A stretch of 64,000 nucleotides of DNA. Source: Mycobacterium sp. NBC_00419 (lineage in GTDB: Bacteria > Actinomycetota > Actinomycetes > Mycobacteriales > Mycobacteriaceae). The translations under genes and the position numbers were made by a program. The notes beneath the pieces are model-generated. The model did no database searches. It was given only the letters and a program-made list of their open reading frames with translations, and was not told the origin of the DNA. The stretch covers positions 5,394,001-5,458,000 of the forward strand of contig NZ_CP107931.1 in the NCBI RefSeq assembly GCF_036023875.1. The letters run 5' to 3'. Positions 26,585-46,668 of this stretch are shown here, piece after piece (position 1 is the stretch's first letter; each line of letters opens with the position of its first letter).

Positions 26585-27853
26585 GTGACACATGTGACTG
26601 GTGAGTCTTCGGTGTTGCCGCGCGGGGTGCAAGGCGCGGCTGACCCGAACTTCGCCTATGCGGTTCGCAGCTTCGCGAGCCTCTTTCCGCATCCCCGCTT
26701 CGGTGGCGGGGCGTTGGCGGTGTACCTCGACGGTCAGCCGGTGGTCGACGTCTGGACAGGCTGGTCGGACCGGCGCGGACGAGAGCACTGGTCCGCCGAC
26801 ACCGGCGCCACGGTGTTCTCGGCGACCAAGGGTGTCGCCTCGACGGTCATCCACCGCCTCGTCGACCGCGGCCTGATCGACTACGACGCGCCCGTCGCCG
26901 AGTACTGGCCGGAGTTCGGCGCCAACGGCAAGGGCCAGATCACCGTGCGCGACGTCATGCGGCACCGGGCCGGGCTGGCCAACCTGCGCGGCGTGCGCAC
27001 CCGCGAACTGCTCGATCACCTGCACATGGAGGAGCGGATTGCCGCAGCGCCGGTGGGCAGGCACTTCGGCAAGCCCGCATATCACGCGATCACCTACGGC
27101 TGGCTGCTGTCCGGCCTGGCCCGCGCCGTCACCGGCAAGGGGATGCGCGAGCTGATGCGCATCGAGGTGGCCGAGCCGCTCAACACCGACGGCATCCACC
27201 TGGGCCGACCGCCACTGGGCGCGCCCACCCGGGCCGCGCACATCGTCGGGCCACAGCTCAACATCCCCAACCCGCTGTTCAACGCGATAGCGCCCAGGAT
27301 TGCCGCCCTCGAGGTGTCGGCCATCTTCGGCTCGATGTACTTCCCGGGGATGAAAGCCGTCGTTCAGGGCGACATGCCGCTGCTCGACAGCGAGCTGCCC
27401 TCGGCCAACGGCGTGGCCACCGCGCGGAGTCTGGCCCGCATGTACGGCGCGATCGCCAATGGCGGCGAGATCGACGGTCGGCGTTATCTGTCCGCTGACC
27501 TGGTCGCCGGCCTGACCGGGCGGCCGAGCCTGGCCCCGGACCGCAATCTGATCCTGCCGATGGCCTTCCATCTGGGATATCACTCGCTGCCGTTCCCCGG
27601 CGTTCTGCCCGGCTTCGGACACGTCGGGCTGGGCGGTTCCCTCGGCTGGGCGATGCCCGACAAGGGTTTGTCGTTCGGGTACGTGCACAACCGGCTTCTG
27701 ACTCCCTTCGTCGTCACCGACCAGGCGGGTTTCGTGGCCACGGCCGCCTTGATCCGCCATGGTGCCGCGGCGGCGCGCAAGCACGGTTTCACACCCGTCC
27801 AGGAGTTCGGTGCGACGTTCGCACCCCGCGCCGCAGGGGTGGTTGCGGGCTAG
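26585..27853 (+). CDS. lipL: serine beta-lactamase-fold esterase (LipL-like)
   Basis: A 422-residue class-C beta-lactamase-like hydrolase (family VIII esterase). It has the S79-A-T-K82 nucleophile motif (VFSATKGVAS), a downstream Tyr (YHAITYGWLLSG) that would complete the YxN-type site, and a C-terminal GHVGLGGSLGWAMP in the place of the KTG box. No signal peptide is seen. M. tuberculosis LipL (Rv1497) has the same location and a reported lipase/esterase activity. The real substrate is unknown. The gene is monocistronic and followed by a large non-coding gap. Confidence 0.88.
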   Translation: MTHVTGESSVLPRGVQGAADPNFAYAVRSFASLFPHPRFGGGALAVYLDGQPVVDVWTGWSDRRGREHWSADTGATVFSATKGVASTVIHRLVDRGLIDYDAPVAEYWPEFGANGKGQITVRDVMRHRAGLANLRGVRTRELLDHLHMEERIAAAPVGRHFGKPAYHAITYGWLLSGLARAVTGKGMRELMRIEVAEPLNTDGIHLGRPPLGAPTRAAHIVGPQLNIPNPLFNAIAPRIAALEVSAIFGSMYFPGMKAVVQGDMPLLDSELPSANGVATARSLARMYGAIANGGEIDGRRYLSADLVAGLTGRPSLAPDRNLILPMAFHLGYHSLPFPGVLPGFGHVGLGGSLGWAMPDKGLSFGYVHNRLLTPFVVTDQAGFVATAALIRHGAAAARKHGFTPVQEFGATFAPRAAGVVAG

Positions 27854-28002
27854 CGCCCGCCGTCCGCGTCGCTTTCAGCGGTGTCGTGTCGTGTCGCAGC
27901 ACCGGCGTGTCGCGGGCGACTCGCCGTGTTCAGAGGGCCCCGAGACTTCTCATATCTGGCTCACAGCTAACTTCGGCAACCCCTTCCTACCGCCTTTGAC
28001 CG

Positions 28003-28041
28003 CGAGTGACAATCGTCACTCGGGGGCCCTTTCCGGGCCCC
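28003..28041 (+). terminator. tandem hairpins downstream of lipL
   Basis: Hairpin 1 is CGAGTGAC-AATC-GTCACTCG (28003-28022). Hairpin 2 follows without a gap: GGGGCCC-TTTCC-GGGCCCC (28023-28041). Both are perfect. There is no long U-tract, but the stacked stems would make an effective terminator of lipL transcription, or a barrier in front of the PKS region. Confidence 0.55.
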
Positions 28042-28196
28042 TCATGTCGAATTCAACGAGGTGTTTTACCAATTAATGCCAAATAGCCTGTCGCTTAGCA
28101 AAACGCATTTGCTGACTCGTCAAAATATGCCGGAATTGTCTGATAACGGCTTTGCTTTGATGGTCCTGAATGTGGCCTGAATCACGCATAATGAAC

Positions 28197-28314
28197 AGCT
28201 GAGACGCAATTCTCAGGCTACTCTCAGGTCAGTTGCCATCTGCGCAGGCTGTGATCAGAAAGCCCAGCTCATCGGCGTCTAGAAAGCTGAGGCGCAATAG
28301 CGGAAACTCTCAGG
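28197..28314 (+). repeat. tandem repeat element in the PKS upstream region
   Basis: AGCTGAGRCGCAAT occurs at 28197-28210 and 28285-28298 (13/14 identical). ACTCTCAGG occurs at 28220-28228 and 28306-28314. Each unit is therefore the first motif followed 8-10 nt later by the second. CTGAGA (28199-28204) can pair with TCTCAG (28211-28216), and CCTGA motifs at about 28165 and 28176 are complementary to the TCAGG motifs. This may be a structured RNA or a duplicated regulator site. Confidence 0.5.
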
Positions 28315-28699
28315 AATACCCGTGTGGCCGGCCTCACAGGTTGGCCGGATCGGTGCCGCAACCTCGTTATTCGATGGCATCGCCGGGGGTGTTCTTGCCG
28401 CAGCGTCCGAACGGGTGGTGCAACTCGGTCCGGAAATTTGCTGTATCGCCATATTGGCCGAATTTCGCCTGACTTGCGACAACCAACCTGCTGCAACGGT
28501 GGCCGGGGCCCGGCTAGCGGCAGCCCCGGGCGCGACAGCGCCGCGGGACGTTGCTCGACTCTTCGGTAAAAGCCCTGCTCAAGACTGATTTTCCGACAAC
28601 CGGCTCGGGCATTTTGAGGAACTTTTCGCCCCGAGTTGCGGAATGTTCAGCTACCGGATCTCCGTTGCTGCAGGTGGCGGGCTTGTCGAGCACGGTAAC

Positions 28700-28709
28700 A
28701 TTGGCCAAT
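28700..28709. promoter_or_regulatory. palindrome ATTGGCCAAT, possible operator of the PKS gene
   Basis: A perfect 10-bp palindrome about 150 bp before the PKS start, followed by a further half-like CCAATC at 28712-28717. It is upstream of a possible -10 (TAAGCT, 28759-28764). No regulator can be assigned. Confidence 0.3.
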
Positions 28710-28858
28710 CTCCAATCAAAATCACAAAACATTTGTCGCCGTGGTTAGAAAAAGCCGCTAAGCTACCGATCACGTTGGCAACTTCGCTTGACGATTCCTA
28801 ATCAGAATCAGGCAGGTTGCCTTGCCCCGTGTTGACGAAGAGTGAGGTGTGAGCGGAC

Positions 28859-31800
28859 GTGCGAGAGACATCTGTCACCCCGATTGCAGTCGTTGGTATG
28901 GCTTGCCGGCTGCCCGGAGGGATCGACTCGCCACACAAGCTGTGGGAGGCGTTACTGGAGGGCGCTGACCTCGTCACCGAGATTCCCGCCGAGCGGTGGG
29001 ACGCCGACGAGTACTACGACCCGGAACCCGGCGTGCCGGGACGGTCGGTGTCGCGCTGGGGCGCCTTCGTCGACGACGTCACAGGCTTCGATCCGGACTT
29101 CTTCGGCATCAACGAGCGCGAGGCCACCGCGATGGACCCGCAGCACCGCATGCTGCTGGAGACCGCGTGGGAAGCCGTGGAGCATTCCGGGCACACTCCT
29201 GCCCAGATGTCCGGAACGTCGACTGGTGTCTTCATCGGTATGTCGCACGACGACTACGCCATGCTCACCAGCGCCGCCGGCGCCTACGACCAGGCCTATG
29301 CCTTCACCGGGACACCGTTCAGCATGGCCTCCGGGCGCATCTCCCATGCGCTGGGACTGCTGGGACCGGCCCTGACCATGGACACCGCCTGCTCGTCGAG
29401 CATGGTGGCGGTGCACAGCGCGTGCCGCAGCCTGCATGAGGGTGAAAGCGACATGGCCCTCGCCGGCGGTGTGATGCTCATGCTCGATCAGCGTCTGTAT
29501 GCCTCGGCCTCCGGCCAGGGCATGCTGTCGCCGACCGGCCATTGCCACGCTTTCGACGTGAACGCCGACGGCTTCGTCCGTTCGGAGGGCTGCGGCATCG
29601 TCATGCTCAAGCGTCTCGACGACGCCGAGCGCGACGGTGACCGGATTCTGGCCGTCATCAAGGGCACCGCCTCCAACCAGGACGGGCGCACCGAGAACAT
29701 CCTCACCCCGTCGACCGAGGCGCAGATCTCGGTCTTCAAGGCCGCGCTTGCCGCCGCCGATGTCGACCCCGCCACCGTCGGCATGGTCGAGGGTCACGGC
29801 ACCGGCACGCCGGTGGGTGACACCAAGGAGTTCAACAGCATCTCCAGCGTCTACGGCATCGCCGGCCCGTGCGCTCTGACCTCGGTCAAGAGCAACTTCG
29901 GCCACGCCGAGTCCGCTGCGGGTGTGCTGGGCCTGATGAAGGCCGTGCTGTCCGTGCACCACGGTGTCGTGCCGCAGAACCTGCACTTCAACCGTCTGCC
30001 CGAACACCTCGCCAAGGTCGATACCGGACTGTTCGTCCCGGCCGAGGCCACCGACTGGCCGACCGACGGTCCCCGCCGCGCTGCGGTGTCGTCGTACGGC
30101 ATGTCGGGCACCAACGTCCACGCCGTGCTCGAGCAGGCGCCCACCACGGACGTCGCCGATGCTGCCGCGATTGCTGCTGCCGACGCCGGCCTGCTGGTCT
30201 TCCCGGTGTGCTCCACCTCCGCCGACGAGCTGCGGCACACCGCCGAGCGGCTTGCCGACTGGGTCGAGAACAGCTCCGCCGACCTGTCGCTGCGCGACCT
30301 GGCCTACACGCTGGCGCGTCGCCGCGGGCACCGCCCGGTGCGCACCGCCGTCATCGCCGCCGACCGCGCCGAACTGGTCGAGCGGCTCCGTGAGGTCGCC
30401 AAGGGCGACGATCCCTACCAGGCCGCCGTCGGACACGACGACCGCGGACCGGTGTGGATCTTCTCCGGCCAGGGCTCGCAGTGGGCCTCGATGGGTGTGG
30501 GGCTGCTGGCCACCGAGCCCGTCTTCGCCGCCACGATCGCCGAGATCGAACCGCTGATCGCCGCGGAGTCCGGTTTCTCGATCACCGAGGCCATCACCGC
30601 CCCCGAAACCGTCGAGGGTATCCATAAGGTCCAGCCGGCCATCTTCGCGATGCAGGTGGCCATGGCCGCGACGATGAAGGCCTACGGCGTCGCGCCGGGC
30701 GCCGTCATCGGCCATTCGCTCGGCGAGGTTGCCGCTGCCGTCGTCTCCGGTGCACTGTCACTGGAGGACGGCGTCAAGGTCATCTGCCGTCGTTCACTGC
30801 TGTGCCTGCGGCTGGCCGGCGGCGGTGCGATGGCCTCGGTCGAGCTGCCCGCACAGCAGGTGCGCGAGGAACTCGAGAAGCAGGGCATCGAAGATGTCGT
30901 GGTCGCCGTTGTGGCGTCCCCGAACTCGACGGTGATCGGCGGTGCCACCCAGACCGTCCGCGACATCGTCGCGGCGTGGGAGCAGCGCGAGATCATGGCC
31001 CGCGAGGTCAACGTCGACGTCGCGTCGCACTCGCCTCAGGTGGAGCCGATCCTCGACGAGCTGTCGGAGATGCTGGCCGACATCACCCCGATGGCCCCGG
31101 AGATCCCGTACTACTCGGCCACTTCGTTCGACCCGCGCGAGCAGCCCTACTGCGATGCCGACTACTGGGTCGACAACCTGCGCCACACCGTGCGTTTCTC
31201 GGCGGCCGTGCAGACCGCGCTCGAGGACGGCTTCCGGGTGTTCGGCGAGCTGGCCCCGCATCCGCTGCTGACCCGCCCGATCGACCAGACCGCCGCGACA
31301 CTGGATATCTCGGTGGCCGCTGTGGCCGGTATGCGTCGTGGTCAGGAAGTGCCGCACGGACTCGGTGAGTTCCTCGGCAGCCTGTACTCCGCCGGCGCCG
31401 AGGTGGACTTCTCGGTGCTCTACCCGGCCGGTCACCTGGTCGACGCGCCGCTGCCGACCTGGACCCATCGCAGCATGATGCTGGCTTCCGAGGGTGGCGA
31501 TCAGCAGGCCCGTGGTGCTCACCTGGTGGCGGCCCACCCGCTGCTCGGTGCCCACGTGCGCCTGCTCGAGGACCCGGAACGGCATGCCTGGCAGGCCGAG
31601 GTCGGCACCGCGGCGCTGCCGTGGCTGGTCGATCACCAGATCAACAACGTGCCGGCGCTGCCCGGCGCCGCCTACTGCGAGATGGCTCTGGCCGCGGCAC
31701 GCACCGCCCTTGGTGAGGCTGCCGAAGTCCGCGACGTGACGTTCGACGCGATGCTGCTGCTCGAGGACGAGACCCCGGTCAGTGCCGTAGCCTCGGCCAA

Positions 31801-34800
31801 GACGCCCGGTGTGCTGGAGTTCGTGGTCGAGACCGACACCGACGGTGAGCGGGAACGTCGCGCCAGCGCGGTGCTGCATGCCGCCGATGCCGACGAGCAG
31901 CCGCACTCCTACGACATGGACGAACTGCTGGCGGCGCACCCCAACCGCGCCGACGGCAGCGAGGTCCGTACCTGGTTCGACGGCCGCGGCGTGCAGTTCG
32001 GCCCGGCGTTCACCGGCCTGGTGGCCGTCAACGCCGGCGATGAGTCCGCCGGCACCGTGCTGGCCGAGATCGGCCTGCCGTCGTCGATCCGCAACCAGCA
32101 GACCGCCTACGGTGTGCATCCCGCACTGCTGGATGCCTGCTTCCAGTCGGTCGCCGCCCATCCGGGTGTGCAGTCCTCCGGCACCGGCGGGCTGCTGTTG
32201 CCGCTCGGTGTGCGTCGGCTGAAGGTGCACGGCCCGACCCGCAATGCGCGGTACTGCCTGACGAAGCTCGCTTCGCTCGACGGCTCCTCGGTTGAGGCCG
32301 ATATCGAGCTGCTCGACGACTACGGCACCGTGCTGTTCGGTGTCCAGGGTCTGCGCATGGGCAGCGGTATGTCCGAGGCCAACGAGGGCGACCGGGTGCT
32401 CAACGAGCGTCTGCTGGCCATCGAGTGGCGTCAGCAGCAGCTCAACGAGGTCACCCACGCGAACTCGGCGACCTGGCTGGTCGTCAGCACCTCCGATGCC
32501 GCTGACATGCTGGCCTCGGCGCTGACCGACGCGCTCAAGCTCAACGACGCCGACGTGACCACGATGTCGTGGCCTCAGCACGCCGACCACGCCTACAACT
32601 CCCAGCTTCTGGGCTCGCACTTCTCCGAAGGTGGCTTCGACAACGTCGTGGTGGTCACCCCGGCACGCAACGGCTGCCCCGAAGAGCAGCTGCCGCACCG
32701 CGGCGGCGAGCAGGTGCGCCACCTGGTGCGCATCGCCCGCGAGCTGTCCGAGACGGCAGGCGAAGCGCCCCGGCTCTACGTCGTAACCCGCAACGCCCAG
32801 ACGGTGCTCGCCGATGAGCGGCCGAACCTGGAGCAGGCCGGCCTGCGTGGTCTACTGCGTGTGATCGGTGCCGAGCACCCGCAGTTGCGGCCCACCCAGA
32901 TCGACGTCGACGACGCCACCGAGGCCAAGTTGATGGCAGCCCAGCTGCTCACCGGCAGCGAGGAAGACGAGACCGCGTTCCGCAAGGGACAGTGGTACAC
33001 CGCGCACCTCTACCCGAGCCCACTGCGGCCCGACGAGCGCTACACCACCGTGGTCGACCACGCCCGCGACGGAATGCGCCTGGAGATCCGCACCCCGGGT
33101 GACATCGAGACCCTGGAACTGGCTGCGTTCGACCGCATCCCGCCCGGCCCGGGTCAGATCGAGGTCGCCGTGACGGCGTCCAGCCTCAACTTCGCTGACG
33201 TTCTGCTGGCCTTCGGCCGCTACCCGAGCTTCGAGGGTCTGCAGCCCCAGCTGGGTCTGGACTTCGCCGGCGTGGTGACCGCGGTCGGCCCGCAGGTCAC
33301 CTCTCACCGGGTCGGCGACCATGTCGGCGGCATGTCGACCAACGGCTGCTGGGGCTCGTTCGTCACCTGTGACGCCGATGTGGCAGTGACCCTGCCCGCC
33401 GGCCTACGTGATGATCAGGCGGCCGCGGTGACCACCGCCTCGGCCACGGCTTGGTACGGCCTGCACGACCTGGCCCACATCAAGGCCGGCGACAAGGTGC
33501 TGATCCACTCCGCCACCGGCGGTGTCGGCCAGGCCGCAATCGCCATCGCCCGGGCTGCCGGCGCCGAGATTTACGCGACGGCGGGCACCGAGGAACGCCG
33601 CGACATGCTGCGCACCATGGGCATCACGCATGTCTACGACTCGCGTACCGCCGCGTTCGGCGAGCAGATCCGCCGGGACACCGACGGCTACGGCGTCGAC
33701 ATCGTGCTGAACTCGCTGACCGGTGCCTCGCAGCGGGCCGGCGTGGAACTGCTCGCCTTCGGCGGCCGGTTCGTCGAGATCGGCAAGAAGGACATCTACG
33801 GCGACACCCGGATGGGCCTGTTCCCGTTCCGTCGCAACCTGTCCTTCTACGGTGTCGACCTGGCCCTGATGGCCAGCACCCACCCGGAGCAGATCCGCGA
33901 ACTGCTCGACACCGTCTACCGGTTGACCGCCGACGGTGTCCTGCCGCAGCCGGAGACCACCCACTACCCGCTGGCCGACGCGGCCACCGCCATCCGTGTG
34001 ATGGGTGCCGCCGAGCACACCGGCAAGCTGCTGCTGTCGGTGCCCAAGGTCGGCCACAGCAGTGTCGTGGTTCCGCCGGAGCAGGCCAAGGTCTTCCGCC
34101 GGGACGGCTCCTACATCATCACCGGCGGTCTCGGCGGTCTGGGCTTGTTCCTGGGTGCCAAGATGGCCGCGGGTGGTTGCGGCCGCATCGTGCTGAACTC
34201 CCGTTCACAGCCGAAGCCCGAGGCACTGGAGGAGATCGCGCGGATGCGCGCCTCCGGCGCCCAGGTCGAGGTCGTCACCGGTGACATCGCGCAGTCGGAG
34301 ACGGTGGACCGCCTGGTGGCAGCCGCCACCGCGACCGGTCTTCCGGTCCGCGGCGTGCTGCACGCGGCGGCCGTGGTCGAGGACGCCATCCTGACCAACA
34401 TCACCGACGAACTGGTGGACCGGGACTGGGCCCCGAAGGTTTACGGCGCCTGGCACCTGCACCGGGCCACCACGGCTCAGCCGCTGGACTGGTTCTGCTC
34501 GTTCTCCTCGGCGGCGGCTCTGATGGGCTCGCCGGGTCAGGGCGCGTACGCCGCGGCCAACAGCTGGCTGGACGGCTTCACCCAGTGGCGCCGTTCGCAG
34601 GGTCTGCCGGCCACCGCGATCGCGTGGGCGGCGTGGGACGAGATCGGTGCAGGTAAGCACCTGGCTGCCGGCGGCGACACCGCGATGATCAGCCCCGAGG
34701 AAGGTGCGCACGCCTTCGAGGCGCTGTTGCGCCACGACCGGGCCTACAGCGGTTACGCGCCGCTGATCGGCACGCCGTGGCTGACCGATCTCGCGCAGCG

Positions 34801-35140
34801 CAGCCCGTTCGCCGAGGCGTTCGCGTCCACCGGGGACCGGCCGACTGACACCAGCACGTTCCGTGCCGAGCTGCACACGTTGCCGCGCGACGAGTGGCCC
34901 ACCCGGGTGCGGCGACTGGTCTCGGAGCAACTCAGCCTGATCTTGCGCCGCTCGATCGACCCGGACCGGCCGATTTCCGAGTATGGTCTGGACTCGCTGG
35001 GCAATCTCGAACTGCGTACCCGAATCGAAACCGAGACGGGCATCCGAGTGCGGTCGATGGACATCACCACCGTCCGGGCGCTGGCCGAGGGCCTGTGCGA
35101 GACGTTGGCCGGTGTGATTTCGTCAGCTCCATCCCGCTGA
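28859..35140 (+). CDS. pks5: Mas/Pks5-type iterative type I polyketide synthase
   Basis: A 2093-residue multidomain enzyme expected to elongate a fatty acyl starter with methylmalonyl units into methyl-branched acids. Domain order is KS (1-430; Cys178 in DTACSSSM), AT (530-850; Ser620 in GHSLGE, and VASH as in methylmalonyl-specific ATs rather than malonyl-type HAFH), DH (870-1110; His926), ER (1410-1730; NADPH loop [10 protein letters not shown] near 1552), KR (1750-1930; GGLGGLG, Tyr1897) and ACP (2010-2080; Ser2046 in LDSL). This full reducing set and size match Pks5/Mas (about 2100). GTG 28859 starts right at the KS domain. No thioesterase is present, so a PapA-type acyltransferase (next gene) would off-load the product. 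Locus position matches M. tuberculosis pks5 (Rv1527c) although the strand differs. Confidence 0.93.
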
Positions 35141-35165
35141 CAGGCGCGAATAGGGGAACAACAGA

Positions 35166-36602
35166 GTGGTTGCACTCACTGCAATCCATGACTGGGTCGA
35201 CGCGCCGGGGACGGTCACTTCGTGGAGTCCGTCACCGGCGTGCCTGAAGAAGCTTCAGGAGGCTCCGGTCAGCGATGTGCCTGCCAGCTATCAGCAGGAG
35301 CAGCACATCCGCACGTATCGCCAGCATTCGGCGAACGGTCTGGAGATGGCCCGGCTGCTCATCCCTGCCTGGAACATGCCCGGACGGTGCGACATCCGCG
35401 CGATGACCTACGTCATCAACTCCTACCTGCGCCGGCACGACACCTACCACAGCTGGTTCGACTTCGACGATGACGACAATGTCGTCCGGCACACCGTGAG
35501 CAACCCGGCCGACATCCAGTTCGTGGCCACCAAACAGGGCGAGATGACGGCGTCGCAGTGGCGCGAGCATGTGCTGGGTACGCCCAGCCCGCTGCAGTGG
35601 GATTGCTTCCGCTTCGGCGTGATTCAGCGTGCCGACCACTTCACGTTCTACGTCAGCATCGACCACCTGCACGCCGACGCCATGTTCATGGTGGCGTTGT
35701 TCGTCGAGCTGCACATGAACTACGAGGCGCTCGCTGGTGGCGGTGCGCCCATCAAGCTGCCCGACGCCGGCAGCTACCACGACTACTGCCTGCGTCAGCA
35801 CGAGTTCACCTCCGGGTTGACGCTGGAGTCACCCGACGTCCGCAAGTGGATCGAGTTCCTGGAGGACGCGGGCGGCTCGTTGCCGACTTTCCCTCTGCCA
35901 CTTGGTGATTCGACGGAACCCTGCACGGGCGATCTGCTCACCGTCCAGTTGATGGACGATCACGAGACCGATCGGTTCGAGTCGGCCTGCACCTCGGCCG
36001 GGGTTCGCTTCATCGGCGGCGTGTTCGCCTGCGCGGCGATCGCGCATCGCGAGCTCACCGGTGATGACACCTATTTCGTGATCACTCCGACCACCACCCG
36101 CAGCACTCCCGAGGAGTTCGTCACGACGGGCTGGTTCACCGGGCTGGTGCCGCTGTCGGTACCGGTTGCGGCGCGGTCCTTCGCCGAGGTGGCCAAGGCG
36201 GCTCAGGAGTCCTTCGACTCCGGAATGCCCATCGCCAACGTGCCCATCGAGCGGGTTTTCGAGCTGGCCGAATCGCTGCCACAGATTCGCAAGCCGGGCG
36301 CCGGCGTGCCGATGTTGTCGTACCTCGACGTGGGTCTGCCGCCGCTGAATCCGATGATCATGTCGCAGTGGCATGGTCTCAACGGCCGGCTGTACACCGA
36401 CCTCGGGGCGGCCAATCAGGTCGGCATGTGGGTCAACCGTCGCGCCAACGGCACCATCATCACGGTGGCCTACCCAGACAACCCGATCGCCCGCGAGTCG
36501 ATCGCGGAGTTCGTCGAGCAGATGAAGTGCACCTACCTGCGGGTCGCCGACGGTCGCGCCGAATCGCTGTCGTCTCCGCGGATACCCAAGGCGACGGTCT
36601 GA
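35166..36602 (+). CDS. PapA-family polyketide-associated acyltransferase
   Basis: A 478-residue condensation-fold acyltransferase. The catalytic HxxxD is H167-L-H-A-D171 (SIDHLHADA), and the second-half channel sequence (GWFTGLVPLSVPV) is typical of PapA1/PapA3/PapA4. The N-terminal AIHDWVDAPGTVTSW also resembles PapA starts. It lies 25 nt after the PKS gene, so it should transfer the PKS-bound methyl-branched acyl chain to a sugar hydroxyl, as PapA proteins do for trehalose lipids and lipooligosaccharides. The GTG 35166 start has a GGGG-type SD. The acceptor is unknown; pks5-papA4 linkage in M. tuberculosis suggests a LOS-like product. Confidence 0.88.
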   Translation: MVALTAIHDWVDAPGTVTSWSPSPACLKKLQEAPVSDVPASYQQEQHIRTYRQHSANGLEMARLLIPAWNMPGRCDIRAMTYVINSYLRRHDTYHSWFDFDDDDNVVRHTVSNPADIQFVATKQGEMTASQWREHVLGTPSPLQWDCFRFGVIQRADHFTFYVSIDHLHADAMFMVALFVELHMNYEALAGGGAPIKLPDAGSYHDYCLRQHEFTSGLTLESPDVRKWIEFLEDAGGSLPTFPLPLGDSTEPCTGDLLTVQLMDDHETDRFESACTSAGVRFIGGVFACAAIAHRELTGDDTYFVITPTTTRSTPEEFVTTGWFTGLVPLSVPVAARSFAEVAKAAQESFDSGMPIANVPIERVFELAESLPQIRKPGAGVPMLSYLDVGLPPLNPMIMSQWHGLNGRLYTDLGAANQVGMWVNRRANGTIITVAYPDNPIARESIAEFVEQMKCTYLRVADGRAESLSSPRIPKATV

Positions 36603-36607
36603 TCCCA

Positions 36608-37960
36608 GTGGCCGGGGTTTCGGACAATGTGGTGCCCTACACCGACCAGGCGTTGCTCCTGGCGTTGCGCGGATCCGGCGAAGAAGCCGTCATGCAGATC
36701 GTCTGGACCTACGAACATCCCGTCGACATGCACGGTCTGCGGCGCTTTCACGCCGAGTTCGGGCAGGGTCTGGTCGCGCGGCACATCGAGCGTTCGCCCG
36801 TCCCGTTCGGCCGGCATCGCTGGGTAGCGGCACCGGGCCCGCAGTGCGACATCGACATGGACGACTCGACGCGCCCGCGCGCCGAGCTGTTCGAGTGGGT
36901 CAACGAACACCTCCAACTGCCCATCGACCCCGAACGCGGTCCTGGCTGGCGGATGGGCGTGCAGCGTTTCACCGACGGTTCGACGGCGATCAGCGTGGTG
37001 GTGACGCACTGCGTGGCCGACGGTGGCGGCTTCATCGGCAGGGCCATCGACACGATCAACGGCAAGGACCGCACCCTCGGCTACCCGCCCGCGGGTTCGC
37101 GCACCAGGGGGCGGGCGGTGGCCGCCGACCTGCGCCAGACCGTCAGGGACTTTCCCGAGACCGCCCGAACTCTGGGCCGCGCGGCGAAGGTGGCGCTGGC
37201 ACGCCGGCATGAACTGGTGCGGCCCAAGCCGTCCCGGCCCGCCGTCGTCTCCGGCGGTGCTCAGCAGGTACACGTGCCGAACGTGGCCGTCTACATCGAC
37301 GGCAAGGATTGGGATGCCCGCGCGGAAAGCCTTGGCGGGAACTCATATTCGCTGCTGGCCGGATTCTGCGCGAAGCTGGCCGAGCATCAGGGCCGGGTGC
37401 GCGCCTCCGATGGTGTGGTCACCCTGATGATTCCGGTCAACGAACGCCAGGATGCCGACGACACCGGCGGCAACGTGGTGTCGATCGCCAACGTCAGCTT
37501 CGACCCCATCCCGGTGACCAAGGATCTCGCCGGTGCCCGCGCGGCGATCCGGCAGGGCCTCAAGACTGCCCGCGACGTGCCCGACGAGATGGTGGCGCTG
37601 CTTCCGCTCATCCCGTTTCTGCCCAAGCGCGCCTTCGCCAAGACCGTGGACATGACGTTCGGGTTCTCCGAGGACCTGCCGGTGTCGTGCTCCAACATGG
37701 GGGATCTGACCGCCGATCTGCTGCGCATCGACGGCACCCCGGCCGAATACATCAATCTGCGTGGCGTCGACAGGTACACGACCAGGGAAGCGCTCGAGCG
37801 CCGGCACGGCATTCTCACCCTGGTCTCGGGACGTGTCGGCGAACAGATCACCATCGCGGTGGTCGCTTACCAGCCGGGTCTGGACAACACCCGGGACCGT
37901 CTGCGCGAGGTTGTCGCCCAGGTACTCGCCGAGTTCGAGCTGACCGGTGTGATCGAATGA
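36608..37960 (+). CDS. condensation/WS-DGAT-type acyltransferase, first of a tandem pair
   Basis: A 450-residue acyltransferase with H134-C-V-A-D138-G (THCVADGGG), the HHxxxDG-type active site lacking the first His. Other landmarks are the mid-protein GGNSYSLLAGF and the C-terminal LPVSCSNMGDL, which corresponds to the DFG/latch region of condensation folds. GTG 36608 starts 5 nt after papA. It is a clear paralogue of the next gene (shared EHPVD, GGNSYSL, EFELTG motifs). Similar pairs lie beside pks5 in lipooligosaccharide loci of M. smegmatis. Proposed to add a second acyl group to the same glycolipid; this is inferred. Confidence 0.82.
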   Translation: MAGVSDNVVPYTDQALLLALRGSGEEAVMQIVWTYEHPVDMHGLRRFHAEFGQGLVARHIERSPVPFGRHRWVAAPGPQCDIDMDDSTRPRAELFEWVNEHLQLPIDPERGPGWRMGVQRFTDGSTAISVVVTHCVADGGGFIGRAIDTINGKDRTLGYPPAGSRTRGRAVAADLRQTVRDFPETARTLGRAAKVALARRHELVRPKPSRPAVVSGGAQQVHVPNVAVYIDGKDWDARAESLGGNSYSLLAGFCAKLAEHQGRVRASDGVVTLMIPVNERQDADDTGGNVVSIANVSFDPIPVTKDLAGARAAIRQGLKTARDVPDEMVALLPLIPFLPKRAFAKTVDMTFGFSEDLPVSCSNMGDLTADLLRIDGTPAEYINLRGVDRYTTREALERRHGILTLVSGRVGEQITIAVVAYQPGLDNTRDRLREVVAQVLAEFELTGVIE

Positions 37961-37969
37961 GGTTCATCG

Positions 37970-39379
37970 TTGACAACTGAAATACGGCCCAAACGACGGC
38001 TTTTCGCCCGCCGCGCAGCAGATGCGGAGAGCTCCGAGCACCGGCTCGAGTTCCTCGACCAAACCGCGTTCGAGCTGATGCGTGCCACCGGCCGCAGCCA
38101 GCTGATGCAATGCATCTGGGTCTACGAACATCCGGTGGACGTCGAGGCGCTCAAGCGATTCCACGACAACTTCACCGCATCGCTGGGCAGCCGGCTGATC
38201 GAGCCGTCCCCGCTTCCGTTCGGCCGGCCTCGCTGGGTCGATCCGGTCGGTCCGCCCGCACCGATCCGCTTCGCCGAGCATCCGCGGCCGCGCAGTGAGC
38301 TGATGGACTGGGCCGACGAACTCGGCGAGCTGCCGATGGATCCCGAGCACGGTCCGGCGTGGTATCTGGTGGTACAGCCATTGACCGACGGCTCGACCGC
38401 GATATCGATGCTCGGCTCGCATTGCATCGGCGACGGGGTCGGCGCACTGCTGGCGATCTTCGAAGCCGTCACCGGCAACATCCGCGACATCGGATACCCG
38501 CCGCCGAAGGCACGCCCGGCCCGCGCAGCGCTGGCCGCCGATCTGCGTCAGGCGGTGCGTGATCTGCCTCTGACTGCCCGCACGGCGGTCAAGGCCGCCA
38601 AACTCGTCGCCGCACAGCGCAAAGAACTGGCCAAGTCCCGGGCGCTGCAGCCGGCCGCCGAGCCCGGGGTCGATCTCGACAGCACGGTGGTGGTGCCGTC
38701 GGTCGCGGTCTTCGTCGATGCCAACGAGTGGGACGCCCGCGCGCACGCCCTCGGCGGAAACAGTTATTCGCTGGTGGCCGGGTTCGCTGCGAAGATGGCC
38801 GAGCATCTGGGCCGTCGCCGGACCTCCGACGGAGCGGTCACCCTGGTGATCGCGATCAATCTGCGGGAGAACCTCGACGACGACCGTGCCCTGGCCATGG
38901 CGTTCGCCAATGCCACCGTCGACCCAACCCAGGTGACCACCGATCTTTCCGAGGCCCGTGCGATGGTTCGGACCGCCCGGGAGACCGCCAAGGCACAGCC
39001 GGACCCAACCCTGGAGCTACTTCCGCTGATGCCGTGGCTGCCCAAGCCCGCGGTCAAGGGGGTGGCGGAGTTGCTGTTCGCCTACTCCGACGACCTCCCG
39101 GTGTCGTGTTCGAACCTGGGGGACCTGCCGCCCCAGCTCGCCCAACTCGACGGAACCGATGCGGAGTACGTCTTGATCCGGGCACTGGACCAGCACGTGA
39201 CGATGCGGGAGATCCAGCGCTCGCACGGTCAGCTCGTCGTGGTGTCCGGGCGGATCAACGGCAAGGTGGTGATCTCGGTAGAGGCGTACGAGATCGGCGC
39301 GGAGAACAGCAAGCCGCGGTTGCGGGCGTTGGCGGCCCAGACGCTGGCCGAGTTCGAACTGACCGGCAGCATCGAGTAG
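37970..39379 (+). CDS. condensation/WS-DGAT-type acyltransferase, second of the pair
   Basis: A 469-residue paralogue of the preceding protein, with active site H151-C-I-G-D155-G (SHCIGDGVG), GGNSYSLVAGF and LPVSCSNLGDLP. It has a basic N-terminal extension (IRPKRRLFARR) not present in its neighbour. TTG 37970 is the first in-frame start, 9 nt after the previous stop; a short N-terminal uncertainty remains. Together with papA this makes three acyltransferases for one PKS, suggesting a multiply acylated product. It ends 1 nt before the convergent Gap gene. Confidence 0.82.
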   Translation: MTTEIRPKRRLFARRAADAESSEHRLEFLDQTAFELMRATGRSQLMQCIWVYEHPVDVEALKRFHDNFTASLGSRLIEPSPLPFGRPRWVDPVGPPAPIRFAEHPRPRSELMDWADELGELPMDPEHGPAWYLVVQPLTDGSTAISMLGSHCIGDGVGALLAIFEAVTGNIRDIGYPPPKARPARAALAADLRQAVRDLPLTARTAVKAAKLVAAQRKELAKSRALQPAAEPGVDLDSTVVVPSVAVFVDANEWDARAHALGGNSYSLVAGFAAKMAEHLGRRRTSDGAVTLVIAINLRENLDDDRALAMAFANATVDPTQVTTDLSEARAMVRTARETAKAQPDPTLELLPLMPWLPKPAVKGVAELLFAYSDDLPVSCSNLGDLPPQLAQLDGTDAEYVLIRALDQHVTMREIQRSHGQLVVVSGRINGKVVISVEAYEIGAENSKPRLRALAAQTLAEFELTGSIE

Positions 39380-39380
39380 C

Positions 39381-40097
39381 TCAGAGGCTGGCGATCCCGG
39401 CGATGAACAGGATGGTGCCCACCAAGCCGAGCACGGCGGCGACCTGCCGCCGGGTGCGGCGCCGGATCCACTCGTTGAACGCCTGCACCCGAACGGCCGT
39501 TTTCTGCGGTGCGATCAGATAGCTGACGAGGGGAATCGACGAGATGGCGTTGGCCAGAATCAGGAAGGCGAACAGCGCGAGCGCCTGAATCGCCGGCGGT
39601 TCGTTGGAGGCGATGATCAGCGCGAGCAGGGCCATGTACTCGACACCCGGCATGGCCAGGCCGAGGCCGGCGAAGCTGGAGAACCAATGCGATTCGCCGT
39701 GGATGATGTTCTTGGCCCGGATGGCCACCCGGCCCGTGGTGGTCACCGGTTCGTCGGCCGGCGAGCCGTCCTCGGCGGTCAATTCGGGCGGGGCCAAGGG
39801 GTTTCGCGCGAAGCGGCCCAGCGGCACGTTGCTGCCGATGATGGCGGCGATCAGCAGCACGGCCGCGCCGATGCCGATCTGGATCTTGGAGCCGTCGAAG
39901 TTGGTGGGTCCGAACAGGCCACGGTGGAACACGAACAGCACGAGCAGGCCGACGCTGGCGCTCAGGGTGACGCCGCTCAGCAGGAAGATCAGCAGCTGGC
40001 GGATCGGGTGCTTGCGAGTCAGCATCAGGGCGATCAGACCGATGCGGGTGGGTTCGAAATTGACCGCGATGGCGAGCACCAGCACGGTCGTCCACAT
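39381..40097 (-). CDS. Gap/Sap (SfLAP)-family lipid-addressing membrane protein
   Basis: A 238-residue membrane protein with about six hydrophobic helices and the family start NFEPTRIGLIALMLTRKHP. Gap (glycopeptidolipid) and Sap (sulfolipid) proteins are small integral membrane proteins needed for surface export of those lipids. The linked PKS and acyltransferases suggest this one addresses their product to the surface. No MmpL gene is in the window. It ends against the acyltransferase operon and lies 45 nt downstream of the glycosyltransferase gene on the same strand. Confidence 0.85.
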   Translation of the reverse strand: MWTTVLVLAIAVNFEPTRIGLIALMLTRKHPIRQLLIFLLSGVTLSASVGLLVLFVFHRGLFGPTNFDGSKIQIGIGAAVLLIAAIIGSNVPLGRFARNPLAPPELTAEDGSPADEPVTTTGRVAIRAKNIIHGESHWFSSFAGLGLAMPGVEYMALLALIIASNEPPAIQALALFAFLILANAISSIPLVSYLIAPQKTAVRVQAFNEWIRRRTRRQVAAVLGLVGTILFIAGIASL

Positions 40098-40142
40098 GGC
40101 TGCTGACTTTACCTTGTCGGCGCGTAGCGGCCGATTCGCCGA

Positions 40143-41384
40143 TCAGCGGCCGGGGTGTTTGCGGGCCGCCGCTTCGAGCAGGTCTGCGGCGGCGGTGATG
40201 CTGGCCGTGGGTGCGGTCATCCGGGCGGCCACCGCGCGCGCCCGTGCGGCGTATTCCGGTGTGAGAACTGTCCTCAGGTCAGCAAGCAGGGTGTCCCTGG
40301 TGGTGGCGGTGAACCGGCGTGCCGTTCCGACCTTCAGCCGGGTGACTTGGTTTGCCCAGACCGGCTGATCGGCTCCGACCCACAGGATGAGGGTGGGCAC
40401 CCCGGAGCGGACGCTGGCCGCAGTGGTCCCCGCTCCGCCGTGATGGACGATGGCGCGGCACAGCGGGAACACCGCTGAGTGATTGACCGAGCGCACCACC
40501 TTGACGTGCTCGGCGTCGGGGATGTCGGCGACGTCCCAGATACCGGTGCAGATCAGCGCACGCTCACCGAGCTCGGCGCACACGTCGGTGATCAGCGCGA
40601 TGGCCTCGGCGGGGGAGCCGACCGGCATGCTGCCCCAGCCGAAGTAGATCGGCGGCGCGCCCGCCCCAATCCAGGAGCTGACCGCATCGTCGACCGAGGT
40701 GGACAGTGCCATCGTCAACGAGCCGATGAGCGGGCGCTTGCCCTCCCATTCCTGCTCCAGCCCGGGAAAGAACACGTCGTCGTAGGCCTGGATCTCCAGC
40801 GTGCCGCCCTCGACGACACGTCGCACCCCGCGGGTGGTCGCCCTGGGCAGGCCCAGGGCGCGCCGCTGGTCGTCCTCGGCGCTCTTGTAGAGGCGCCAGT
40901 GGCCCCATTCGACCACCGCCCATGCCGGCCCGAGCACCGGTTTGGGGATCGACAGGGTCTGGCTGTTGGGTCGGCACGGAAAGTAGTGCAGGGCGGCCAG
41001 CGGGACGTGTCGGTACTCGGCGACGTTGGCCGCGACTTCCTGATAGGTGGTGCCGGTCAGGATCAGGTCGGCGCCCTCGGACATGGCGGTCAGCGTCTCG
41101 TTCATCTCGGCCCAGCCGTCGCTGATGTACTCGCGGGCCTGGCGGACGACGGCGAGCGGATTGCGGGGCTTCCACCACTCGGTGAAGACGTCGGCTTCGA
41201 TCTGCTTCTGCGAGTCGACGCCATAGGGCAGCGCCGGACCCAGGCCGGCGTCCTCGACGAAGTCAACGAGGTTGGGTGGTACCGCCATCCGCACCTCGTG
41301 GCCGCGGCGGACGAGTTCGAGGCCGACTGCGGCGCAGGGTTCGACATCCCCCCGCGTCCCGTGGACCGCCACGGCGAATTTCAT
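40143..41384 (-). CDS. GT1-family glycosyltransferase
   Basis: A 413-residue GT-B glycosyltransferase of the MGT/Gtf type. The N-terminal VAVHGTRGDVEPCAAVGLELVRRGHEV is the acceptor-domain signature. The C-terminal nucleotide-sugar motif is HHGGAGTTAASVRSGVPTLI followed by DQPVWANQV. It resembles the Gtf enzymes of glycopeptidolipid synthesis and Rv1524/Rv1526c at the M. tuberculosis pks5 locus. It probably attaches a sugar to a lipid or to the lipid's glycan core. It is transcribed with the Gap gene, opposite to the PKS operon. Confidence 0.88.
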   Translation of the reverse strand: MKFAVAVHGTRGDVEPCAAVGLELVRRGHEVRMAVPPNLVDFVEDAGLGPALPYGVDSQKQIEADVFTEWWKPRNPLAVVRQAREYISDGWAEMNETLTAMSEGADLILTGTTYQEVAANVAEYRHVPLAALHYFPCRPNSQTLSIPKPVLGPAWAVVEWGHWRLYKSAEDDQRRALGLPRATTRGVRRVVEGGTLEIQAYDDVFFPGLEQEWEGKRPLIGSLTMALSTSVDDAVSSWIGAGAPPIYFGWGSMPVGSPAEAIALITDVCAELGERALICTGIWDVADIPDAEHVKVVRSVNHSAVFPLCRAIVHHGGAGTTAASVRSGVPTLILWVGADQPVWANQVTRLKVGTARRFTATTRDTLLADLRTVLTPEYAARARAVAARMTAPTASITAAADLLEAAARKHPGR

Positions 41385-41404
41385 TGACCGGTACCTGCGT
41401 TCGA

Positions 41405-41461
41405 CGACAGTGCAGCGCGGCCCGAGGCCAGCGTTCCTGCGATTAGATCACAACTGTCGTG
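41405..41461. repeat. widely spaced inverted repeat between the membrane protein and glycosyltransferase genes
   Basis: ACGACAGT (41405-41412) and ACTGTCGT (41454-41461) are perfect 8-nt complements separated by 41 nt and fill the 85-nt gap upstream of the glycosyltransferase start. They could form a long-looped RNA stem or be two regulator half-sites. Confidence 0.3.
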
Positions 41462-41469
41462 GCACGCCC

Positions 41470-42213
41470 TCAATGCGAGGTCTTGGAGAACCACTTCATC
41501 TTGATCCGCCAGGAATGCGCGGAGGCCAGCGCGAAGCCGGCCCCGCACAGGCAGGCGAAGAACCAGACCATCTTCCCGCCCTCCACCGACTGGAACGGTG
41601 TCACGTAGGCGGTGATGATCCGGATCGAGCAGGCGACGACGCCGGCGCCCGAGGCCAGCAGATAGACGTTGGCGATCAGCCGCGAGCGGGGGTCCTTGCG
41701 CAGGATCAGCAGCGCTCGCGAACCGTAGACCAACAGATAGATCAGGGTGCCGCAGAGCAGCAGCCAGTAGGCGCTGAGCCAGAAATCCGTGGGCACCTGG
41801 AAGAAGTCCGGCCGGTAGATCTTGGCGCCGTTGCCGATGGAGAACGTGGCCAGCAGCAGCGGTATGCACAGTGTCGCCGGGCGCTCCACGTACTGCTTGA
41901 ACGTCAGTTGCAGGGTGTGGTCCTCCTGCAGTCTGCCCAGGGCGTTGTAGACGATCGCGGAGGCGGCCACGATGTAGCAGTCGTGCCCGAGGTAGTCCTC
42001 GAGGTTCCACTTGCCGGTGAGGTTGTACAGCAGTTGCCCGACGGTCTCCGACGCCAGCGGCGACATCAACAGGACCGCGGCGCCCTGGAGCGCGATATTG
42101 AGGGTCGCGGCGACTTCCCAGCGGCACGACCACGTCACCCGCCTGATCCACAGGCTCCACGCGATACACGCCAGGGTGATGGTGATGAGAACACCAAGAG
42201 CCATAGCCGACAA
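41470..42213 (-). CDS. multi-pass membrane protein of unknown function
   Basis: A 247-residue protein with about seven hydrophobic segments. They begin LGVLITITLACIAWSLWI, and the last is WFFACLCGAGFALASA, followed by a short basic tail. A hydrophilic segment around residues 65-80 (NLTGKWNLEDYLGHDC) and conserved-looking aromatic and His residues recall sensor or transporter membrane domains, but I do not recognise the family. It lies 29 nt after the HTH gene on the same strand, so the two probably form one unit, with the membrane protein as effector or sensor. Confidence 0.75.
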   Translation of the reverse strand: MSAMALGVLITITLACIAWSLWIRRVTWSCRWEVAATLNIALQGAAVLLMSPLASETVGQLLYNLTGKWNLEDYLGHDCYIVAASAIVYNALGRLQEDHTLQLTFKQYVERPATLCIPLLLATFSIGNGAKIYRPDFFQVPTDFWLSAYWLLLCGTLIYLLVYGSRALLILRKDPRSRLIANVYLLASGAGVVACSIRIITAYVTPFQSVEGGKMVWFFACLCGAGFALASAHSWRIKMKWFSKTSH

Positions 42214-42242
42214 CCTTTACCCCCGAATAACTTCAGCAAATA

Positions 42243-42704
42243 CTACAGGGGAGGCGCATCCTGTCGAGGTTCCGATTCCGAGAGTTTGCGCACAATGCGT
42301 AAAGTCCTGGGCGAATTAATTGTCGTCACCGTAAATGGCACGGATTCGACGTAATTCCATACCTCTTCCCGGCTCATGAGGCCGAACCGAATCTGCAGGT
42401 CGGGCGAGCTCAAGCCGAATCTTCCTGCCAGTAAACGCAGCTCCTCGGCGTTCGGGTAGTCGCCGTCCTTGATCCGCCGGTAATACGTGGAGCTGGAGAT
42501 CCCGAGTGCGTCGTAGATGTCCTTGGCCTCCACGTCACCGTCGAGAAGGTACTCGAGAAGCGTTTTGAGCTGTCTGCCGTTTTCGTCGGTCCGAGGCACC
42601 CAATCACGATACCCGAACTCCCGGTAATGGGTATTGGCAACCTTCGGGGACAAAGAATTCAATTTATTGACACTGCCGTCACAGTTATGGGAATGGTCTC
42701 CCAT
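42243..42704 (-). CDS. helix-turn-helix transcriptional regulator
   Basis: A 153-residue protein with a Cro/XRE-like HTH at about residues 60-115 (AKDIYDALGISSSTYYRRI, then a second helix pair LRLLAGRFGLSSPDLQIRFGL). The N-terminal 40 residues are not recognisable. The start is uncertain. ATG 42704 is used here, but its codon is part of an inverted repeat and has no SD. A TTG about 60 nt downstream, preceded by TAAATT and 7 nt, would make a shorter leaderless product beginning LSPKVANTHY. The promoter region is shared with the divergent 42734 gene and carries repeats likely bound by this protein. Confidence 0.7.
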   Translation of the reverse strand: MGDHSHNCDGSVNKLNSLSPKVANTHYREFGYRDWVPRTDENGRQLKTLLEYLLDGDVEAKDIYDALGISSSTYYRRIKDGDYPNAEELRLLAGRFGLSSPDLQIRFGLMSREEVWNYVESVPFTVTTINSPRTLRIVRKLSESEPRQDAPPL

Positions 42705-42714
42705 TTCTGGGAAT
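42687..42714. promoter_or_regulatory. repeat cluster between divergent genes, probable operator of the HTH regulator
   Basis: ATGGGA-ATGGTC-TCCCAT is an 18-bp inverted repeat (42687-42704). TGGGAAT also recurs as direct repeats at 42688-42694 and 42708-42714, 20 bp apart, so on the same helix face. It lies 8 bp from the -10 of the divergent gene, placed to control both directions. Confidence 0.5.
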
Positions 42715-42721
42715 CGGCCGC

Positions 42722-42727
42722 TACGGT
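42722..42727 (+). promoter_or_regulatory. -10 box (TACGGT), leaderless start of the 42734 gene
   Basis: TACGGT is exactly 6 nt before ATG 42734. The operator-like repeats end 8 bp upstream, where the -35 and spacer would be. Confidence 0.5.
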
Positions 42728-42733
42728 GGGGGC

Positions 42734-43327
42734 ATGGTTGCTCCTCCCGTGACCAACCCGTCGAGCAACGTGCGGGTAGTCGATGACGAAATTGCAGGTC
42801 TTCCGCGAGCGGAAGACATGGTGCACATGGCTGTGCCACTGAGCCATGACCTGACCGCGGAACTCGACGGTGCGGTGGCTGTCGCCGCCGTCGGGTTCGA
42901 GGAATTCCTGCTGGCCGCGCTGGGCCGCGCCATCGCGCGGACCATCGGTGTCGGTGTGGTGACGGTCGGTGGGCTGACCACGGTCGCCCCGATCAGGTTG
43001 ACCTGCGCGCTGGAACGCGGCCTCGATGCCGACGGCCTGCTCGCCGACGTCCGGCGGGCGCTGGCCGACCCGCCGCACGGAACGCACGGTCCGGCCGACG
43101 TGATGTTCTCCTTCCTGGGTCTGTCACCGGAACCGGCGCTGGGGCCGTTGCAGCTCGTCGACGGCCCGGCGCTGGCCGTGCTGGCGTACCGCCGTGACGG
43201 CGTGCTGGCGATGGACTGGTGGTACGACGGCCGCAGGCTGGACGCGTGCACCATCGAGGAGCTGGCCGGCCAGTTCCGGCTCGGGTTGATCGGGCTGACG
43301 TCCGAGGTCACCCCGGTCTGCCGCTAG
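42734..43327 (+). CDS. orphan C-terminal half of a condensation (NRPS C/E-type) domain
   Basis: A 197-residue protein resembling only the second lobe of nonribosomal peptide synthetase condensation or epimerisation domains. It has the AFLLAALGRAIART-type helix (FEEFLLAALGRA), TTVAPIRLTCAL, then ADVMFSFLGLSP (the N-x-x-G latch region), and MDWWYDGRRLDACTIEELAGQFRLGL at the end. The catalytic HHxxxDG lobe is missing, so it is unlikely to be an independent acyl-transfer enzyme. It could be a gene remnant, or a lobe that pairs with another protein. The leaderless start and intact frame argue that it is expressed. Its TAG stop overlaps the ileS T-box promoter. Confidence 0.7.
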   Translation: MVAPPVTNPSSNVRVVDDEIAGLPRAEDMVHMAVPLSHDLTAELDGAVAVAAVGFEEFLLAALGRAIARTIGVGVVTVGGLTTVAPIRLTCALERGLDADGLLADVRRALADPPHGTHGPADVMFSFLGLSPEPALGPLQLVDGPALAVLAYRRDGVLAMDWWYDGRRLDACTIEELAGQFRLGLIGLTSEVTPVCR

Positions 43328-43330
43328 AAT
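43325..43330 (+). promoter_or_regulatory. -10 box (TAGAAT) of the ileS T-box leader
   Basis: TAGAAT overlaps the stop codon (TAG 43325-43327) of the preceding gene and would start the T-box RNA at about 43337, just before stem I. Confidence 0.45.
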
Positions 43331-43551
43331 CTGTCCAACGGCACCGATCCGGCCATCACCGGGGAGCCTTCGGAAGAACGGTCCGACGATCCGAGGTCGG
43401 GGGCCAAGTAGACCCGAACGGGTGGGCCCGTCACAGCCTGCAATGAGCGACGCACGGCGACGTGCGTAAGCGGGGTGGTACCGCGGCGCTCGCGCACCTG
43501 CGCGTCGTCGTCCCCGTGCCTGAGGATCCGGCACAGGAGACGAGCGCAATC
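43331..43551 (+). ncRNA. T-box riboswitch controlling ileS translation
   Basis: This is the short actinobacterial ileS T-box. Stem I carries the isoleucine specifier ATC at 43355-43357 (GGCCATCACCGGGGAG). The conserved T-box TGGTACCGCGG is at 43476-43486 and pairs with the uncharged tRNA acceptor end. GCGCTCG (43486-43492) is complementary to CGAGCGC (43541-43547), right after the SD AGGAG (43535-43539). A second hairpin GTGCC/GGCAC lies in front of the SD. No U-tract terminator is present, so control should be by SD sequestration, as known for mycobacterial ileS T-boxes. Confidence 0.92.
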
Positions 43552-46500: not shown

Positions 46501-46668
46501 GACCGTATTCGCGTGGTGATCTCGGTGCCCGCTGACCACGAAGAGTGGGCCCGCGCGCACAGCGACCTCATCGCCGGGGAGATCCTGGCCACCAGCTTCG
46601 AGTTCGCCGAGCCGGTCGACGGCACCGAGATCGGCGACGGCGTGCGGGTGGCGATCGCCAAGGCCTGA
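43552..46668 (+). CDS. ileS: isoleucyl-tRNA synthetase
   Basis: A 1038-residue class I synthetase charging tRNA-Ile. It has the HIGH-type motif PHYGHLL (in [14 protein letters not shown]), the editing CP1 domain ([13 protein letters not shown]), and KMSKS at about residue 620 ([13 protein letters not shown]). The anticodon-binding and C-terminal domains are complete. GTG 43552 begins VTDNGYPKV, like M. tuberculosis MTDNAYPK; an in-frame ATG at 43462 lies inside the T-box and is rejected. It is the eukaryote-like, longer type found in mycobacteria. Expression is controlled by the preceding T-box. Confidence 0.97.

Follow-up and report, generated by a model that had tools for sequence, protein, structure and literature searches.

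A compact Mas-type polyketide synthase locus between lipL and ileS in Mycobacterium, a candidate split and minimal lipooligosaccharide-type pathway

The lipL-ileS locus of Mycobacterium sp. NBC_00419

How could a surface-lipid locus work when genes for starter activation, export and sugar synthesis are missing from it? This question is raised by the interval between lipL and ileS in a 64,000-nucleotide stretch of Mycobacterium sp. NBC_00419 (hereafter the window; positions 5394001-5458000 of a 5.6-Mb single-contig genome, labelled G000). Its plus strand encodes a Mas-type polyketide synthase (PKS), a PapA acyltransferase, two tandem acyltransferases (AT1 and AT2) and a short open reading frame (ORF) by ileS, and its minus strand encodes a PF11139 (Sap/Gap) protein, a GT1 glycosyltransferase and a membrane protein. 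An earlier reading, made without database searches (the sequence-only reading), had listed a Mas/Pks5-type PKS, PapA, two condensation-type acyltransferases, Gap and GT1, and this list was confirmed by Pfam, NCBIfam and a structure model. The same reading had noted the absence of genes for a fatty acyl-AMP ligase (FAAL), MmpL, sugar synthesis and nonribosomal peptide synthetases (NRPS) from the locus, which was borne out: none of the 78 AMP-binding and 40 MmpL-domain Pfam matches of the genome lies within the window.

We consider it probable, with some reserve, that this locus is the core of a split, minimal lipooligosaccharide (LOS)-type pathway leading to a lightly glycosylated polyacyltrehalose; the exporter and probably also the starter-activating enzyme would be supplied in trans. 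The observations behind this proposal are the gene content and synteny of the locus, the common origin of its core with longer LOS-type loci, the selection acting on its genes, the relationship and co-occurrence of an unlinked MmpL, and a search of 15 compact genomes that detected no FAAL of the long-locus type. In the pathway that we infer, the PKS would make a methyl-branched fatty acid, and PapA, AT1 and AT2 would each place one acyl chain on a single sugar head group, most likely trehalose, to which GT1 would add one sugar. The product would exit via an MmpL encoded at 4023875-4027141 of the same genome, aided by the Sap protein as a possible MmpL partner. The PKS starter would most likely be activated by the FAAL of the trehalose polyphleate (TPP) locus (3174678-3176396), or possibly by another FAAL.

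Compact, A' and long forms of the locus

AT1 relatives were found in 226 of 248 sampled Mycobacterium genomes (E 0.001), many of them weak. The locus was read in 26 of the 248, which comprise 16 compact, three A' and seven long forms, and the remaining sampled genomes may hold further compact loci. Two more genomes (G111 and G127) have the core on contigs that end inside or just after AT2, and were excluded from all counts. The window genome shares the compact gene order, PKS-PapA-AT1-AT2-Sap-GT-ileS, with 15 further genomes of the sample; this order also occurs in Mycobacterium sp. M26, of which the locus alone was read and which stands outside the 16. No MmpL or FAAL was detected by tblastn inside the 16 compact loci or that of M26, and queries for pyruvyl-transferase and UDP-sugar-dehydrogenase gave no matches in the compact loci queried (all but four).

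The A' form, found in small genomes (G025, G209 and G194; drafts of 2.5-3.8 Mb), has an MmpL gene in the stretch from GT1 (or Sap) to ileS. The same PKS-PapA-AT-AT core is found in the long form, together with an MmpL (7/7) and a FAAL (7/7) in the interval; six of the seven long loci were read through to ileS. Sugar-type genes (GT2, ABC-transporter, pyruvyl-transferase or UDP-glucose-dehydrogenase) were found in four of the seven (G207, G153, G084 and G056), and also at the locus of G002, a genome outside the seven. Taking MmpL, FAAL and any sugar genes away from the long form gives the compact form. In the PKS tree (all trees are quick ones, with no bootstrap) the compact and A' forms group together as sister to the long form (support 100). 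The placement at a LOS site proposed in the sequence-only reading agrees with the presence of these longer LOS-type loci at that site in relatives; the lipL-ileS position is also the one that we take to be the pks5/papA4 region of M. tuberculosis.

The locus is neither unique nor decaying. All reading frames of the window locus are open, and dN/dS (the ratio of nonsynonymous to synonymous substitution rates) was 0.04-0.24 across every gene in comparisons with G241 and G098, that is, all genes are under purifying selection. For the window PKS, identity in compact loci is 85-97%.

Sugar genes just past ileS were considered and rejected: in G004, G176 and G172 an EamA-type gene separates the locus from a pyruvyl-transferase-family gene, which is 13-17 kb distant from AT1. 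The window genome has no pyruvyl-transferase gene past ileS; the only PF04230 match in that genome scores 44 bits and is found 1.7 Mb from there.

An unlinked MmpL as candidate exporter

In each of five compact genomes, two MmpLs with at least 50% identity were found; the first is close to the TPP-type FAAL and the other is unlinked. The unlinked MmpL was used as a query in 33 genomes and then in all 248, with three candidates scored per genome in the larger search. Orthologues with at least 72% identity were found in 16 of the 248 genomes, all 16 of them compact, and the next best match reached at most 65%. Fifteen of these genomes had been picked as compact by AT1, while the remaining one, G043, was found via the MmpL and proved compact when its locus was read. 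The 33-genome list omitted the in-locus MmpLs of G209 and G194, so that absence from it is no proof, and all 16 compact loci were therefore read directly; none has an MmpL12-type exporter within the locus.

In the MmpL tree, for which the tree program warned of long branches meeting (as it did for the FAAL tree), the unlinked MmpLs make up a single clade (support 100), which groups with the 13 long-locus MmpLs (SH-aLRT, Shimodaira-Hasegawa-like approximate likelihood ratio test, 100), and the TPP and A' MmpLs fall apart from this group. A constrained clade of unlinked and TPP MmpLs was rejected (approximately unbiased test, p-AU 0.0001, quick tree). Six of the 13 long-locus MmpLs (G192, G095, G245, G002, G042 and G213) were assigned to the locus by coordinates, and of these G002 was also read.

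MmpL12 has been reported as the LOS exporter in M. marinum (PMC12507525), and an interaction between MmpL8 and Sap has been described (PMC7261415). Taken with the long-locus kinship, these reports make it likely that the unlinked MmpL exports the product. The sequence-only reading had offered, as its first alternative, a reduced pathway that uses factors from elsewhere, and this alternative gained support, with a long-clade MmpL unlinked in 16/16 compact genomes and a long-type FAAL in 0/15.

In 13 of 15 genomes, add and/or a conserved gene of 485 aa is found no more than 1.5 kb from the unlinked MmpL gene, and in G043 the MmpL gene adjoins add. The 485-aa gene was rejected as an MmpL partner: it is conserved, has no Pfam match and belongs to a sdhA-cdd-deoA-add neighbourhood.

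Starter activation

A search with the long-locus FAAL as query was performed in 31 genomes (E 1e-150). FAALs of the long-locus clade were present in 13/13 long-locus genomes, with 62-100% identity and in one clade (support 99), and were found in 0/15 compact and 0/3 A' genomes in this search. In all 15 compact genomes, a FAAL with 56-58% identity maps, by coordinates, within 10 kb of the TPP-type MmpL, and at this threshold G241 and G004 have the TPP-locus FAAL only. The A' FAALs of G025 and G194 form a separate lineage in the FAAL tree and are not TPP-type. In M. smegmatis, the loss of TPP in a delta-fadD23 mutant was reported to be incomplete, possibly via another FAAL according to its authors (PMC10465359), which makes an exchange of FAALs between such pathways plausible.

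A second Mas-type PKS, 65% identical, is encoded in the window genome at 1284407-1292753 and has a divergently oriented FAAL of its own; an NRPS-like frame of 4166 aa (1298-1311 kb) lies ~5-6 kb away, and together they could represent a lipopeptide locus. No counterpart of this PKS appears in G241.

Polyketide synthase and acyltransferases

The KS, AT, KR and ACP motifs of the window PKS are all present, and the DH motif HX3NX4P was found in it and in 20 of 21 relatives, the remaining one being a fragment. Scores against PDB chains were mixed for 5bp4; chain 5bp1, which we take to be from M. smegmatis, was nearer to three long-locus PKSs than to the window PKS, and the window PKS was closer to 9d2z, presumably M. 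tuberculosis Mas, and no conclusion was drawn from them.

The listed ORF of AT1 starts at 36368 and overlaps PapA; this frame was the one scanned with Pfam, and no Pfam match or PDB sequence match was obtained. Its AlphaFold model (pLDDT 85.8) matches condensation domains, wax ester synthase/diacylglycerol acyltransferase (WS/DGAT) and PapA5, and a condensation/WS-DGAT/PapA5 fold is predicted for AT1 from this model. Histidine motifs are intact in 45/45 AT1/AT2-type acyltransferases and 22/22 PapAs of the window and 21 other loci.

The sequence-only reading had found three acyltransferases for one PKS notable. This view did not hold up, since PapA and the tandem pair are also present in 7/7 long loci read, one of which has a further acyltransferase, and the pair is apparently ancestral. 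In the acyltransferase tree (midpoint root) the first acyltransferases of all forms make up one clade and the second ones another (SH-aLRT 85 and 83). Each clade spans all forms, and the tandem pair is therefore probably older than the split between compact and long forms, a placement with modest support.

In G043, AT1 and AT2 are just 52-55% identical to those of the window while the PKS is 86% identical, a divergence that suggests fast change of acyltransferase specificity. In the long locus of G231, the PKS as read is split into three ORFs, and the FAAL is followed by a third acyltransferase-like gene.

Weighing the proposal and its alternatives

Several points weigh against the split-pathway proposal. 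A single evolutionary event underlies most of the MmpL association, and the 16/16 co-occurrence therefore does not amount to 16 independent tests; the A' genomes G025, G209 and G194 keep an in-locus MmpL of another lineage, and the substrate of the unlinked MmpL may be something else. At least one more FAAL of the same class is held by 13 of the 15 compact genomes, and this second FAAL adjoins the second Mas-type PKS in the four genomes checked (G000, G098, G009 and G172). Sharing of the TPP FAAL is thus forced just in G241 and G004, and even there on the condition that no more distant FAAL takes on this role. In three of the seven long loci (G109, G087 and G231) the interval is devoid of sugar-type genes, and two of them, G109 and G087, lack GT1 as well; some long loci are therefore not LOS-like, and the product may be sugar-free. 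Finally, the direction of change (loss in the compact form) is presumed, and the product lipid is predicted from genes.

The last of the points on sugars leads to a plain polyacyltrehalose pathway like that of diacyltrehalose and polyacyltrehalose (DAT/PAT), with GT1 and the neighbouring membrane protein as bystanders. Such a pathway would fit a locus without sugar-synthesis genes, as trehalose is generally available, and three acyltransferases would suit polyacylation; the long loci G109 and G087, which combine the core, MmpL and FAAL with no GT1 in the interval, also agree with it. However, GT1 stands beside the core in 16/16 compact and 5/7 long loci, with dN/dS of 0.15-0.17, and we consider this alternative unlikely.

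Still less probable is a sulfolipid-like pathway, in which the PKS and PapA would make an acylated trehalose sulfate as in sulfolipid-1 (SL-1) and Sap would be the SL-1 addressing protein. The window PKS passes the NCBIfam Pks2 model (NF041183), PapA2 is the nearest solved relative of PapA (568.8 bits in a PDB sequence search) and a PF11139 protein is present. The Pks2 model is non-discriminating, however: all five Mas-type PKSs tried, long-locus PKSs included, scored 3485-3702 bits, so names derived from this 'equivalog' model are unreliable. The sulfolipid label from NCBIfam was discarded as evidence, since long-locus PKSs, the second Mas-type PKS and an A' PKS fit that model too. Unlinked genes of the trehalose-sulfotransferase family PF09037 were found in 8/8 compact genomes searched, including the window genome, but also in 5/5 long-locus genomes searched, and they were not found in the 3/3 small-genome drafts (G025, G209 and G194), which keep the core; the conservation of GT1 in the locus also speaks against a sulfolipid.

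A decaying LOS remnant with no functional product would explain the FAAL, exporter and sugar genes missing in place, but is scarcely credible given that the frames are open and the motifs present, that every gene has a dN/dS well below 1, that the leader is conserved and that 16 sampled genomes share the gene order.

The split-pathway proposal thus remains the one that we favour. The locus would work like a LOS-type pathway, yet we count it as a variant and not as a LOS locus, because three features of LOS loci fail here: a long-clade FAAL, an in-locus MmpL12-type exporter and oligosaccharide genes.

Comparison with known lipid loci

In outline, a Mas/Pks5-type PKS and a PapA-type acyltransferase are common to the compact locus and to the LOS loci of M. 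smegmatis (the MSMEG_4727-4737 island) and M. marinum (pks5/papA4/mmpL12). The longer LOS-type loci of relatives share the core at the same site, and part of them have sugar genes. In contrast to LOS loci, the compact locus itself contains a single GT and lacks FAAL, MmpL and sugar-synthesis genes, and its likely exporter is unlinked.

The TPP locus (pks, papA3, mmpL10, fadD23, pE) shares the PKS, PapA and a trehalose-type chemistry, but its PKS is longer (3676 aa), it has its own MmpL and FAAL, and it has no tandem acyltransferase pair. A locus of this make-up, with Sap, is present separately in the window genome at 3157-3176 kb. The SL-1 and DAT/PAT loci of M. tuberculosis also have a Mas-type PKS, PapA and Sap; unlike the compact locus, they include MmpL8/10 and FadD genes of their own and are not known to contain a GT, and neither MmpL8 nor FadD23 is present at the compact locus, in contrast to the SL-1 locus. 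The glycopeptidolipid locus shares a Gap/Sap-family protein and a GT1-type glycosyltransferase and differs in its NRPS genes, which the window, with no AMP-binding domain, does not contain. No description of the compact arrangement was found among the matches listed in an open-access literature search (subscription papers lay outside it).

The locus represents a mycobacterial surface-lipid locus pulled apart while still maintained by selection, for which candidate missing partners can be named, the MmpL at 4.02 Mb and the FAAL at the TPP locus. In M. smegmatis, derepression of the LOS island was reported to give broad phage resistance with poor adsorption (PMC11139207), and TPPs were reported to be required for infection by some phages (PMC10465359). 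Since both lipids affect phages in that species, a shared FAAL, if true, would tie together two phage-relevant lipids, the phage-receptor TPP and a LOS-type lipid, competing for one enzyme.

The PKS leader and a candidate regulatory repeat

The PKS is preceded by an AT-rich leader, which is 981-1016 nucleotides long in nine genomes compared and contains 40-base blocks up to 89% conserved among them. An exact TCTCAGS-N4-TCTCAGS repeat was found in 16/17 compact, 3/3 A' and 0/6 long-locus leaders. At the equivalent position, the compact leader of G156 carries a variant with two mismatches, and two of the six long-locus leaders carry a related ACTCAGG-N4-ACTCAGG repeat. In a scan of 20 loci, all 12 matches were in these leaders. 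In the window the repeat is the sole match at up to one mismatch, with 0.24 expected and a match in 22 of 100 shuffles, so that the match in the window alone is not significant.

PhoP of M. tuberculosis has been described to bind TCACAGC repeats of 7 bp that must be spaced by exactly 4 bp (PMC4832192), and its binding upstream of pks2, msl3 and fadD21 has been reported in a study whose own consensus differs (PMC3413638). Each half of the repeat agrees with TCACAGC at 5/7 bases, and a PhoP/OmpR-family site is therefore a lead only. The leader would also suit silencing by Lsr2, which has been reported to silence the LOS PKS in M. smegmatis and to prefer AT-rich DNA (PMC8125055). Our more specific idea, a distinct, response-regulator-controlled, lightly glycosylated polyacyltrehalose made from three loci, with the TPP-locus FAAL feeding both lipids, is tentative and rather doubtful as a whole.

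Features of the window and neighbouring genes

The coordinates of the features are given in Table 1. No Rfam matches were found across positions 26500-44000.

Table 1. Features in and around the lipL-ileS interval (window positions)
Feature	Position	Strand	Remarks
lipL	26585..27853	+	Left boundary, outside pathway; NCBIfam LipL 747 bits, cut-off 650
PKS leader, 1-kb, AT-rich	27854..28858	+	56.9% GC vs 67.6% in window
Direct repeat TCTCAGG-N4-TCTCAGG	28211..28228	+	Candidate OmpR/PhoP-family response-regulator site
Mas-type iterative PKS	28859..35140	+	Domains KS-AT-DH-ER-KR-ACP
PapA acyltransferase	35166..36602	+	HX3DX14Y motif; nearest solved relative PapA2
AT1, predicted condensation-fold acyltransferase	36608..37960	+	HCVADG motif; likely GTG start at 36608
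AT2, tandem paralogue of AT1	37970..39379	+	HCIGDG motif; weak WS_DGAT match
Sap/Gap-family membrane protein PF11139	39381..40097	-	137.8 bits; six hydrophobic segments
GT1 glycosyltransferase, GtfB-like	40143..41384	-	Counterpart in 5/7 long loci
Conserved membrane protein adjoining ileS	41470..42213	-	76-93% identity in 12 other loci, long included
Lone C-terminal half of condensation/epimerization-type domain, by ileS	42734..43327	+	From structure model
ileS	43462..46668	+	Right boundary

The membrane protein at 41470-42213 is probably outside the pathway. Its gene is missing from the compact locus of G172, and in one scanned relative it adjoins a small ORF with a below-cut-off helix-turn-helix match.

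The ORF at 42734-43327, which is kept beside ileS, has invariant D161, W162, W163 and D165, and the half with the histidine motif is absent; the structure model suggests that it is the C-terminal half of an NRPS condensation/epimerization-type domain. Elsewhere in the window genome, at 925-948 kb, a 6698-aa NRPS-like frame with five AMP-binding domains adjoins an MmpL-type gene at 945602.

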